Below are positions 436 to 35,166 of a DNA stretch of 45,088 nt, piece by piece. Both the position numbers and the translations under genes were made by a program. The stretch's first letter is position 1. The number at the start of each line of letters is the position of its first letter. Source of the DNA: Candidatus Altimarinota bacterium (GTDB taxonomy: Bacteria; Patescibacteriota; Gracilibacteria; BD1-5; UBA6164); contig JAMONT010000029.1 of assembly GCA_027066455.1 (NCBI GenBank), positions 1 through 45,088 on the forward strand. Reading direction: 5' to 3'. The notes below the pieces were generated by a model, which was not told the origin of the DNA, ran no database searches, and saw only the letters and a program-made list of their open reading frames with translations.

Positions 436-483
436 TCCCTCTCTCTTGAATTCTCTCTCCCTGGTAGGGAGAAAGAGGCTACA
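436..483 (+). repeat. GC-rich palindromic repeat, family A copy 1
   Basis: The copy starts TCCCTCTCTCTTGAATTC and ends GGGAGAAAGAGGCTACA, with an inner stem CTCTCCC/GGGAGA around a short loop. It begins 14 nt after the TAG of the lipoprotein gene and points the same way. The GC content contrasts sharply with the AT-rich surroundings. Related copies are at 1002, 5406, 18844, 20776, 30164 (minus), 34182 and 34954. Confidence 0.9.
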
Positions 484-591
484 AGAAATAAGAAAATTAC
501 TAAGAAATTAGTAGTTTTTTTTAGCTTTATTTAAGGTTAATTTTTATAATTGCAAAAATAGAAAAAAATTATATTTTATAAAAAAAATAAA

Positions 592-1001: not shown

Positions 1002-1051
1002 TCCCTCTCTCTTGAATTCTTTCTCCCCTTTCAGGGGAGAAAGAGGCTACA
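1002..1051 (+). repeat. GC-rich palindromic repeat, family A copy 2
   Basis: Same consensus as the copy at 436, with inner stem TCTCCCC TTTC(A) GGGGAGA. It starts 2 nt after the TAA at 997-999 and lies in the orientation of that gene. Confidence 0.9.
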
Positions 1052-1065
1052 AAAAGAGAAAAAAA

Positions 1066-5405: not shown

Positions 5406-5453
5406 TCCCTCTCTCTTGAATTCTCTCTCCCATTCTGGGAGAAAGAGGCTACA
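5406..5453 (+). repeat. GC-rich palindromic repeat, family A copy 3
   Basis: The family A consensus with inner stem CTCTCCCATTCTGGGAGA starts 1 nt after the TAA of the adaptor gene, in sense. It lies between the adaptor and its pump gene, so it would form a hairpin inside the presumed bicistronic mRNA. Confidence 0.9.
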
Positions 5454-5486
5454 CAAAAAATAAATAATACTTTATTAAAACAATTT

Positions 5487-18843: not shown

Positions 18844-18893
18844 TCCCTCTCTCCTGAATCCTCTCTCCCCTTTTGGGGGAGAAAGGGGCTACA
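18844..18893 (+). repeat. GC-rich palindromic repeat, family A copy 4
   Basis: TCCCTCTCTCCTGAATCC, inner stem TCTCCCC TTTTGG GGGAGA, then AAGGGGCTACA. It begins at the base after the relA stop codon, in sense. Confidence 0.92.
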
Positions 18894-18909
18894 AAATTGT
18901 TTGATTTTT

Positions 18910-20775: not shown

Positions 20776-20825
20776 CCCCTCTATCCTGAATCCTTTCTCC
20801 CCTTTTTGGGGAGAAAGGGGCTACA
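20776..20825 (+). repeat. GC-rich palindromic repeat, family A copy 5
   Basis: CCCCTCTATCCTGAATCC, inner stem TCTCCCC TTTTTG GGGAGA, then AAGGGGCTACA. It starts 2 nt after the stop of the membrane gene, in sense. Confidence 0.9.
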
Positions 20826-20907
20826 AGAAAAAATAGTAAAAAAAATTTTGATATTTAAAAAAAATATGATAAAATAAAAAAAAAGTAATATTTAATATAA
20901 AAATAAA

Positions 20908-29941: not shown

Positions 29942-30892
29942 TTACCAATCTTTTTCTTGATTTTCATCTAACAAAGAATTATCATAAAGATTTTTTATTA
30001 TTTTATTTTCCTTATACTTTTTATTATAAAATTCTCTAAATTGTCCCTGACTTTTTTCTAATTGCTTAGCATAATTTTTTATAAATTCTTCTTGTTCTTG
30101 TTCTTTTTGCATTTTTTTATTTTCTCTTGCTTCTTTCTGTTTTTTTTCTATATTTTCTTTTTTTGCAGCCCCTTTCTCTCCATCGGGGAGAGAGGATTCA
30201 GGAGAGAGGGTTTTATTTTTTTCTTTGTCATTTTTCTGATTTTTTTCTTTTCCTTTATTATTATTTTTTTTCTGATTTTCATCTTTTTTTCAATCTTCTT
30301 TTTTACTATCTTCATCTTTTTTTTCTTTGTTATTTTTTTCTTTTTTTTCATTATTCTTTCATTTTTTTTCATTATTTTTTTTATTTTCTTCTTCTTCTTT
30401 TTCTTTTTCTTTTTTTATCTCTTCTTTTATTTTTTTAATTTTTTCTTTTATAAATAAAATATTTTTTTCTATTTTTAATTTATATTTTATATTTATTGCT
30501 TTTCTATAAAGTTCTAAAGACTTTTTTAAAAATTTTATTTTTTCTTCTTTTGTAATTAATCTTTTTTGAGCTAAAGGTTCTCATAAAAAATAATAATTTT
30601 CTGATAAAGTTTGATATAATTCAAATTTATTTTTTTCTTCTAAATTATCTTTTTTTTCATTTTCTTTTAAAACTTTTTCCAAAATTTCTTTAGATTTTTT
30701 TTCTTTAGAGTCAGTTATAGTTCTTGCTAAATTTATTTTATTTTCAATATTATCTATTTTTTCCAAAATTTCTATTTTTTTATTTTCATCTTTTTCCAAA
30801 TTAAGAGCATAAAAAGTATATCAAAAGTCCTTTAAACTGTAAAAGTTTAAAGCTAAGAATAAAAGAATTAATATTAGTATTTTTATTTTCAT
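29942..30892 (-). CDS. membrane-anchored coiled-coil/TPR-like protein with palindrome insert
   Basis: The 316-residue protein starts with a signal-anchor (MKIKILILILLFLALNFYSL). A helical region follows (FELYQTLSENYYFLG, FLKKSLELYRKAI), suggestive of one or two TPR-like hairpins, and then a very long Lys/Glu/Asn stretch. The 3' half of the gene is almost pure purine. A family A palindromic repeat sits in frame at 30164-30210 and encodes TLSPESSLPDGEKGAAK, unlike the surrounding composition. The C-terminus ends NSLLDENQEKDW. It is the first gene of a three-gene minus-strand group ending with the ATP-grasp fusion, 85 nt before the next gene. Function unknown. Confidence 0.75.
30164..30210 (-). 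repeat. GC-rich palindromic repeat, family A copy 6, inside a CDS
   Basis: On the minus strand this reads CCCTCTCTCCTGAATCCTCT, then CTCCCC GAT GGAGAG, AAAGGGGCTGCA. It is in sense in the coiled-coil gene and encodes LSPESSLPDGEKGAA in the same phase as the copy at 34954. Confidence 0.93.
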
Positions 30893-33788: not shown

Positions 33789-33834
33789 ATTTTTAATTAT
33801 AATGCTAAAAAATATCTTTTATAAAAATTTAATA

Positions 33835-35166
33835 ATGTATAAAATCTGAATAGATGAAGCTGGAAGATGACCTTGGGCTTGATGAGTTGTTGCTTGTGCA
33901 TTTTGTTTCAATCCTGAAAATATGCCAGATAAAAAATTCTTAAAACAAATCTGAGATTCAAAAAAAATTTCTGAAAAAAAAAGAAAAATATTATTTCAGC
34001 AATTAGTTGAAATGAGTTCCCCACCCCTAACCCCTCCCCCTTCAGGAGAGGGGAATTTGGAACCTCAAATCTTTTTCTGAGTTTGAGTTGTTGATAATTT
34101 TGTGATTGATGAAAAAAATATTAAACAAGCAAATAAAGAAGCAATGAGAAGAGCTTTGGTTGAGTTGTTGAGGAAAATAAGCCCCCTATCCCAGCCTTTC
34201 CCCCAAAGGGAGAAAGGAGCTAAAAAATATAAATGAAATATTTCTTGAGTTTTTATAGATTGAAATGATAATTATAATTTTGAAGAACTTGATAAAAAAC
34301 CTGTTTTTGTTATTAAGTGAGATGAAAAAATTCTTGAAATTGGAGCAGCTTCAATAATTGCAAAAGTTTTTAGAGATAAATTAATGAACACTTATTCTCT
34401 ACTTTATCCTAATTTTTGATTTGAAAATCATAAATGATATTGAACAAAAAAACATAGAGAAAAATTGCTTGAAAAAAAAGATATAACTTGAATTCACAGA
34501 ATTTCTTATAAACCTGTAAAAAAAATTCTTGAAAAAAAAGAAAAATTACTTTTACATATTTGTTGCTGACCAGATGCTTCAATTCCCATTATGGATTTGA
34601 AAGAAAAATATGATATTATTTGTTTTTGGTATGATCCAAATATTCAGCCAAAAAAAGAATATGAAAAAAGATTTAAAAATTTTGTAAAAGTTTGTAAAAT
34701 AGAAAAAGTTCCTTATATTAAATGAGAATATGATGTTGAAAATTTTTTAGCAGAAATAAAATGATTAGAAAAAACTCCTGAAAAGTGAGAAAAATGTACT
34801 AAATGTTATGATTTCAGACTTAAAAGAACAGCTCTTGAAGCTAATAAATTATGAATAAAATATTGGACAACAACTTTGAATATTTCTCCTCATAAAGATT
34901 TGGAAAAAATTTTTGAAATTGGGGAGAAGTATTCAAATAATCCACCTTTAAAATCCCTCTCTCCTGAATCCTCTCTCCCTTGCAGGGAGAAAGGGGCTAC
35001 AAAAATAAAAAAAGAAAAATTAGAATTTTTAAAAATAGCTTTTAGAAAAAATGGTGGTTTTGAAAGAAGTGTAGAATATACAAAAAAACATAAAATTTAT
35101 AGACAAAATTATTGTGGTTGTATTTATTCTGATACTTTTCCTGAAAAAAATAAATTTGAAAAATAA
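33835..35166 (+). CDS. RNase HII - epoxyqueuosine reductase QueH fusion
   Basis: The 443-residue protein is one frame with two enzymes. Residues 1-230 are RNase HII: GIDEAGRGP (D7, E8), VFIDGND (D142), KVFRDKL (D181) and HKGYGTKKH. It removes RNA from RNA-DNA hybrids. Residues 237-443 are QueH, which reduces epoxyqueuosine to queuosine in tRNA: LLHICCGPD (C243, C244), CTKCYDFRL (C321, C324) and YRQNYCGCIYS (C427, C429). Three GC-rich palindromes are inserted in frame: 34018-34055 and 34182-34222 in the RNase HII part, and 34954-35001 in QueH. All catalytic residues remain. A start at 33802 would add 11 residues; 33835 gives the usual MYKIGIDEAGRG N-terminus. Each enzyme is clear; the fusion is unusual. 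Confidence 0.92.
34018..34055 (+). repeat. GC-rich repeat, family B, inside RNase HII-QueH gene
   Basis: TCCCCACCCCTAACCCCTCC, then CCCTTCAGGAGAGGGG, encodes SPPLTPPPSGEG at about residues 62-73, between two RNase HII secondary elements. It is in sense, and the proline-rich peptide is foreign to the family. Confidence 0.8.
34182..34222 (+). repeat. GC-rich palindromic repeat, family A-like copy 7, in frame
   Basis: CCCCCTATCCCAGCCTTTCC, then CCCAAAGGGAGAAAGGAGCTA, encodes PLSQPFPQREKGA. The 3' half (GGGAGAAAGG-GCTA) matches family A and is read in the same phase as copies 6 and 8. Confidence 0.8.
34954..35001 (+). repeat. GC-rich palindromic repeat, family A copy 8, in frame
   Basis: TCCCTCTCTCCTGAATCC, stem CTCTCCC TTGC GGGAGA, then AAGGGGCTACA, encodes SLSPESSLPCREKGAT in the QueH part, between IGEKYSNNPPLK and KIKKEKLEFLK. 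It is in sense. Confidence 0.93.

Follow-up and report, generated by a model that had tools for sequence, protein, structure and literature searches.

An old RNase HII-QueH fusion gene with in-frame REP-like inserts in a recoded Gracilibacteria genome

A gene of Candidatus Altimarinota bacterium very probably codes for one bifunctional protein with RNase HII and QueH activity, the result of an old fusion, in which three inserts represent translated copies of REP-like palindromes tolerated in loops. RNase HII nicks DNA where ribonucleotides are embedded. QueH carries out the reduction of epoxyqueuosine to queuosine in tRNA, the step that follows Tgt and QueA. The fusion is a new architecture of these known enzymes. 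A preliminary description of this DNA had proposed a gene of two domains whose inserts keep the frame and avoid the motifs, and this holds, but the fusion is not the singular event that it seemed there, being clade-wide and old. That description did not include the change of partner to a NadD-like domain, the disappearance of the QueH half together with QueA or the rule of strand and frame that the repeats follow across the genome.

We analyzed a stretch of 45,088 nucleotides (the window) and the assembly it belongs to, made of 102 contigs with a contamination of 3.19% and a completeness of 97.66% according to the tool used. The gene is located at 33835..35166 on the + strand and is a single open frame of 443 aa once its 20 in-frame TGA codons are translated as Gly (NCBI table 25); translation with table 11 gives no long frame in this region. 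There is an in-frame ATG also upstream, at 33802, and the nearest homologue starts in the alignment at the equivalent of 33835. A terminator-like hairpin, scored on the opposite strand only, is found 3' of the stop. The genome search gave one RNase HII and one QueH in total, both of them the halves of this gene.

The RNase HII domain (33844..34515, +, aa 4-227) was recognized by Pfam (PF01351) with an E value of 2.3e-28 and 99.9 bits over a cut-off of 25.8. For the QueH domain (34546..35130, +, aa 238-432, PF02677) the values were 2.2e-57 and 194.4 bits over a cut-off of 23.5, with aa 238-371 as the better of two matching stretches; the third insert interrupts this domain. None of the NCBIfam RNase HII equivalog cut-offs was reached (top score 162.8 versus 167, NF000595) and no QueH model appeared among the NCBIfam matches listed for the fusion protein. 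The inserts may lower the NCBIfam RNase HII score. Since the equivalog cut-off was not reached, RNase HII was assigned by Pfam, residues and fold. In an alignment of 30 fused genes, D7, E8, G10-R11-G12, D142, D163 and Y202 were invariant in the RNase HII half, and C243, C244, D247, C321, C324, C427 and C429 in the QueH half, so that the CC, CxxC and CxC cysteines of QueH are all present. We take these to be the catalytic and metal residues, as in the Thermotoga maritima enzymes. The presence of all of them in one continuous frame had been claimed beforehand and is borne out by the table 25 translation, Pfam and the alignment. The search with phmmer against solved structures retrieved QueH (7lc5) and RNase HII of T. 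maritima, and Foldseek with the AlphaFold2 model of the protein matched 7lc5 for QueH and, as best match of the other domain, the T. maritima RNase H2 3o3f. The model had a mean pLDDT of 84.3 and a pTM of just 0.71, and therefore the relative placement of the two domains is unsure.

The preliminary description regarded this domain pair as unfamiliar in other bacteria. Actually, when proteins with both domains were searched for in 99 genomes (our own and 98 relatives, membership being judged by the match span), the fusion appeared in one frame in 42 of them, 40 out of the 48 of its own family and two of the next family (G050 and G064). The separate genes in close relatives that would have spoken against the description were not what we found there; besides the 40 fused family genomes, the top 30 fused genes that we aligned were fused in all cases, with no stop between the domains. 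Among 52 named loci there were 36 fused in one frame, eight that joined QueH to a NadD-like domain and eight with QueH or RNase HII in the absence of the other. These come from scanning species genomes with two seed patterns, a set that covers the fusions carrying the seed motifs and that may omit records near the source genome. The 36 fused loci belonged mostly to Candidatus Gracilibacteria/Altimarinota and included the complete chromosome CP042461. The linker between RNase HII and QueH had a constant length in 37 sequences, with no Met ahead of QueH in the source gene and one in L128 and L151. The record titled Peregrinibacteria GW2011_GWA2_33_10 (L145) had a fused gene without TGA codons, next to genes compatible with the standard code, and therefore the fusion is not tied to recoding. 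Within Candidatus Gracilibacteria/Altimarinota it is an old and clade-wide fusion. Literature searches on QueH with RNase HII or on QueH fusions returned no report of an RNase HII-QueH fusion, and those on queuosine in Gracilibacteria gave unrelated titles.

The QueH half is not always kept. Five family genomes (G002, G008, G010, G020 and G032) had the RNase HII half alone, and QueA was absent from all five; in G024, also without QueA, neither half was matched. Over the 48 family genomes, 40 had both QueH and QueA, none had QueH without QueA, two had QueA without QueH and six had neither (Fisher p 2.3e-6). The two with QueA (G016 and G043) had no match to either half, possibly due to assembly gaps. 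In all 99 genomes the same four classes contained 52, 2, 19 and 26 genomes (p 1.5e-9), a strong association but by no means an exclusive one, QueH rather than another reductase such as QueG being the enzyme searched for. The 19 with QueA and no detected QueH include 17 of the 51 genomes outside the family, and therefore QueA is no general predictor of QueH. Tgt was found in 75 of 79 genomes, among them the source genome, which has QueA too. In the RNase HII tree the RNase HII-only genes of G010 and G020 are nested among those of fused genomes at forks that are starred, although the exact neighbour of G010 is unsure because it is a long branch. The base of this tree is not resolved and 15 of its 48 inner branches are open; at least three changes are forced. 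The simplest reading of these sequence comparisons would be that the QueH half was lost repeatedly where queuosine synthesis ended. The QueH half dropping out along with QueA amounts to a natural experiment about the forces that maintain fusions.

A different partner was found in the sister family f2. The QueH genes of this family have some 200 extra N-terminal residues that matched PF01467, cytidylyltransferase-like, in the six tested (E values from 7.1e-10 to 1.1e-13). Motifs similar to PPHxGH and SSTEIR appear in this domain, from which we presume that NadD is its likely type. NadD-like-QueH loci were L198-L203, L155-L161 and L165, the last eight (L155-L161 and L165) coming from the named-locus scan and three of them (L155, L159 and L165) assigned by eye. 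In the QueH tree the eight NadD-like rows make up one clade (100/100) that adjoins the f2 RNase HII-QueH rows L147 and L149 (83/68). This fits, with moderate support, a QueH that would have switched between RNase HII and NadD-like partners. QueH has differing N-terminal partners inside one candidate phylum. About 165 open codons precede QueH in a record titled Bacteriovorax (L162) and in another of an unclassified bacterium (L164), both among the eight named loci that have one domain without the other, and QueH may have still other N-terminal partners there. Upstream of 4001 in L155, the NadD-like half seems interrupted by an in-frame insert, similar in a motif to a DUF559 endonuclease, that is flanked by the peptides SPGEGGARGG and LPFSGEELE, resembling those of the palindromes. 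It is possible that this insert is an autonomous partner of such repeats. As a mover of the repeats in general DUF559 was discarded, L155 being the only one among the loci examined to have it (by one regular expression).

Three inserts interrupt the fusion gene of the source genome, all of them on the + strand. Insert 1 (class C, 34019..34065) is a C-rich/G-rich hairpin with the approximate peptide SPPLTPPPSGEGNLE, placed in the model in the loop that joins helix 47-61 to strand 79-86. The hairpin of insert 2 (class B, 34181..34223) codes approximately for SPLSQPFPQREKGAKK in the loop from helix 88-115 to strand 136-142. The REP-like insert 3 (class A, 34955..35002) codes for SLSPESSLPCREKGATK and falls in the coil of aa 369-396. 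The block pLDDT values were 74-79 for insert 1, 51-78 for insert 2 and 41-55 for insert 3 (aa 371-390). According to the AlphaFold2 model, then, all three inserts are in loops between secondary-structure elements, which is the point that a structural model had been suggested to check. The three are C-rich first and G-rich afterwards, with a G+C content of 45-53% against 20-30% approximately around them. They had been described as GC-rich palindromes, in frame and between motifs, of which frame and placement hold and the word palindrome has to be qualified. Each hairpin has an energy of -12 to -15 kcal/mol, yet when compared with its own dinucleotide shuffles the z values were +0.03, -1.89 and -0.89 for inserts 1 to 3. 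Hence the inserts do not fold clearly better than the shuffles and hairpin stability was ruled out as evidence.

The inserts belong to three repeat classes with 104 (insert 3), 16 (insert 2) and 3 (insert 1) matches in the genome, the last two counts excluding the copies of the window itself. One scan of viral contigs gave six stretches with the class C palindrome. In the alignment, sequences from other genera also had these sites filled: L005, L006 and L020 at site 1, site 2 in L006, L015 and L025 as well as L005 (there short and A+T-rich), and site 3 in L006, L007 and L014. At the DNA level C-rich/G-rich hairpins were found at sites 1 and 3 of L006, site 2 of L015 and site 3 of L007 and L014; site 2 of L005, L006 and L025 did not show clear hairpins, and the inserts of L005 and L020 at site 1 escaped the hairpin script. 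Site 3 is occupied in L016-L019 and L022 by a long stretch that is not a repeat. Foreign stretches thus recur at the same loops in other genera, several of them palindromic but not all, and therefore these loops are permissive.

The class A pattern GGGAGAAAGRRGCTANAA, with up to two mismatches, matched 104 times in the source genome (63 on the + strand and 41 on the - strand) and the reversed control never. It is for this reason that repetition, and not hairpin folding, is what exceeds chance. The hairpin core appeared 90 times in this genome and at most twice in any of the 98 relatives, only five of the 99 genomes having any. We read 103 distinct copies, of which 46 were inside open frames, 24 at the edge of an ORF and 33 intergenic. 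A copy was considered intragenic when the frame was open for at least 40 codons at both sides, the ORFs being mechanical (at least 60 codons) and not annotated genes. Of the intragenic copies, 43 were sense and three antisense, and 41 shared strand and frame, giving the peptide LSPESSLPxxEKGA. Seven of the 46 were related or composite classes, including insert 2 of the fusion gene. In the composite intragenic elements of L036, L041 and L104 (near 4649) an arm TGCACTT(A/T)ACAG(C/T)ATGACCC takes the place of the leader before the class A hairpin, and L042 and L110 have a third leader type. Two ORFs had several in-frame class A copies each, L069:831-3437 with four (a lamin-tail/PKD-like protein) and L083:557-7000 with three (an alpha-2-macroglobulin).

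To compare coding and non-coding copies we used the 91 class A copies that could be delimited, 39 intragenic and 52 of the 57 others, leaving 12 out. The distance from CCTCTC to CTACAA was 47 nt in 34 of the 36 delimited sense-frame copies and in 14 of the 30 intergenic ones (Fisher p 1.5e-5), a contrast that is partly built in because the intragenic definition requires an intact frame. All 91 were of either the C..C..G or the T..T..A type at three linked sites, changes in the stem that may represent one inherited change; the former type was found in 28 of the 36 sense-frame copies versus 11 of the 30 intergenic (Fisher p 0.001). Among the 57 non-coding copies, the left neighbour was the end of a same-strand ORF in 52 cases and an antisense start in one, with no ORF in the stretch in the remaining four. 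Those located after a same-strand ORF were mostly 1-40 nt away from it (the edge of the element is approximate), L056 being the only non-coding copy whose upstream stop falls within the element in the nearest-ORF table. Between tandem ORFs, 44 of 45 copies were oriented with the genes (p 2.6e-12). The window shows the same pattern. Five + strand copies are found at most ~16 nt past the stop of a + strand ORF and in its orientation: 437..484, 16 nt past the ORF ending at 421, and directly past the respective ORFs those at 1003..1052 (ORF ending at 999), 5407..5454 (5404), 18845..18894 (18843) and 20777..20826 (20773), this last with a diverged leader. Another one, at 30163..30210 on the - strand, is in frame within the ORF 29942-30892 (-) with the peptide TLSPESSLPDGEKGAAK. 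As a coding REP family, class A is thus unusually disciplined in strand and frame.

The list of ORFs with intragenic copies had 37 entries, 20 of which were scanned in the host survey and one more, the fusion gene, separately. Pfam matches were obtained for 17 of the 20. The hosts included a HerA-type helicase, CysRS, a DnaX-type clamp loader, DnaE, RecQ-type and UvrD-type helicases, FtsJ, HSP90, MutL, a ValRS-type synthetase, a chorismate-binding/GATase protein and alpha-2-macroglobulins, among others. In CysRS the repeat lies between aligned blocks, in a gap of 27 residues versus 3 in the solved homologue; for FtsJ and HSP90 the gap against solved structures was not clean. In this small and recoded genome of the Gracilibacteria, coding palindromes have reached dozens of genes while almost strictly observing one strand and frame, and annotators should expect repeat-derived peptides in the core enzymes of such genomes.

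The best supported explanation is that a REP-like repeat was amplified recently and that those of its insertions survived that were in frame and located in loops. The N-terminal half of the protein would act as RNase HII and the C-terminal half as QueH, and both would be expressed as one protein. The halves are presumably independent because the QueH half is missing where there is no QueA and because elsewhere QueH is found behind another enzyme, and co-expression is probably what keeps them fused. Each insert would be a copy of a short REP-like palindrome that is translated with the gene, and one class of these palindromes became widespread in the genome. Such copies would be tolerated because they are in loops, do not shift the frame and contribute some 16 polar residues. 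How the repeats moved is something that we infer. The sense RNA hairpin was weaker than the antisense in 86 of the 91 copies, by a mean of 3.0 kcal/mol, although this is one property of the consensus and not 91 independent facts. From the consensus, a C.A mismatch of the sense RNA corresponds to G.U in the antisense, and the messenger would then hold the weaker hairpin, which could be an advantage for the strand observed. The single frame is not accounted for in this way, because open examples exist also for both remaining sense frames and for two of the antisense ones (one antisense frame has a stop). Replication strand is an improbable cause of the orientation. Both orientations are present on 10 of the 23 contigs with at least two listed copies (100 listed places), and the copies follow gene direction, which argues against it.

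Selective survival is not the only way to obtain such a rule. There is a small chance, which we would not put far above one in ten, that strand and frame are set by the insertion itself, sense-only and in one codon phase, into expressed sequence by way of a displaced strand (the DNA of a transcription bubble or an R-loop) or an RNA copy. If true, a transcription-oriented machinery with no known transposase would be adding a standard 16-residue loop to the proteins of the cell. With dozens of genes reached under such a rule, the choice between survivorship and insertion mechanism as its source becomes testable. We consider improbable that the inserts are absent from the product, the hairpins being removed from the RNA or bypassed by the ribosome with the open frame as something incidental. 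All three inserts do form hairpins, and repeats of the same family are found in genes as conserved as those of CysRS, DnaX, DnaE, HSP90, MutL and ValRS. Such a process would need no open and fixed frame, however, while 41 of 46 intragenic copies keep one strand and frame and the length of 47 nt prevails in the coding ones, with the caveat that the intragenic call itself needs an open frame. It seems just as hard to believe that the fusion gene is decaying, with the inserts as a mark of relaxed selection and one half at least inactive. Three inserts within one gene and the loss of the QueH half in some relatives would agree with that, but the functional residues are intact, no second RNase HII or QueH was found in the genome, and the inserts, placed in modelled loops, are of the same kind as those carried by other housekeeping genes. 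Finally, an assembly or binning artefact, conceivable in a fragmented assembly of 102 contigs with 3.19% contamination, is ruled out for practical purposes by the same junction with its constant linker length in 36 named records, one of them a complete chromosome.

Compared with the RNase HII of T. maritima (3o3f/2etj), the protein described here has in common the domain match, the DEDD-type residues, the GRG motif and the fold, and adds a C-terminal QueH and two in-frame inserts. In the same way, it shares with the QueH 7lc5 all the conserved cysteines, the domain match and the fold, while here QueH comes behind RNase HII and has one in-frame insert, its partner in the sister family being NadD-like. 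As for the repeats, GTAG REPs are the first to be compared. The paper on them gives their definition, places them downstream of genes, describes many as head-to-head or tail-to-tail dimers and reports intragenic REPs, with maxima in O. terrae (GTAG) and R. conorii (CGTC) (PMC3733652). Like them, class A is a short stem-loop, and in its complement GTAG/GCAG adjoins the base of the stem (consensus TTG[T/C]AG-CCCCTTTCTCCC-loop-GGGAGAGAGG, from which some copies deviate). It also has sub-families that differ by paired changes in the stem, and its copies are found shortly after genes and in part within them. It differs in the large intragenic share, mostly in one strand and frame, and in that no Y1/RAYT was found: the profile search for the transposase (PF01797) gave no match in the source genome and matches in 31 of the 99 genomes. 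This absence is no proof since the assembly is 97.66% complete, but for lack of a RAYT we call class A REP-like and do not file it as a GTAG REP. RAYT was also discarded as the mover, with G031, G035 and G039 having inserts without Y1. Relatives with both inserts in the fusion gene and Y1 matches exist (G015, G011, G009 and G018), something that is only suggestive of a link to the repeats. G060 had 14 Y1 matches, many partial and some at contig ends. Literature searches returned nothing on repetitive extragenic palindromic elements in Patescibacteria.

Coding palindromes are best known from Rickettsia, from the palindromic elements reportedly described by Ogata et al. in 2000. Later papers describe these elements, of Rickettsia and Wolbachia, with lengths of 100-150 bp (PMC10969869, PMC2229807, PMC3767692). 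They are also palindromes that lie in frame within numerous conserved genes unrelated to one another, to whose products each of them contributes a peptide. Here the element is 47 bp long, has another sequence, belongs to another phylum and to a genome in which UGA codes for Gly, and follows a nearly strict strand and frame rule. Class A works like the Rickettsia palindromic elements without being one of them, a 47 bp family of Candidatus Gracilibacteria.
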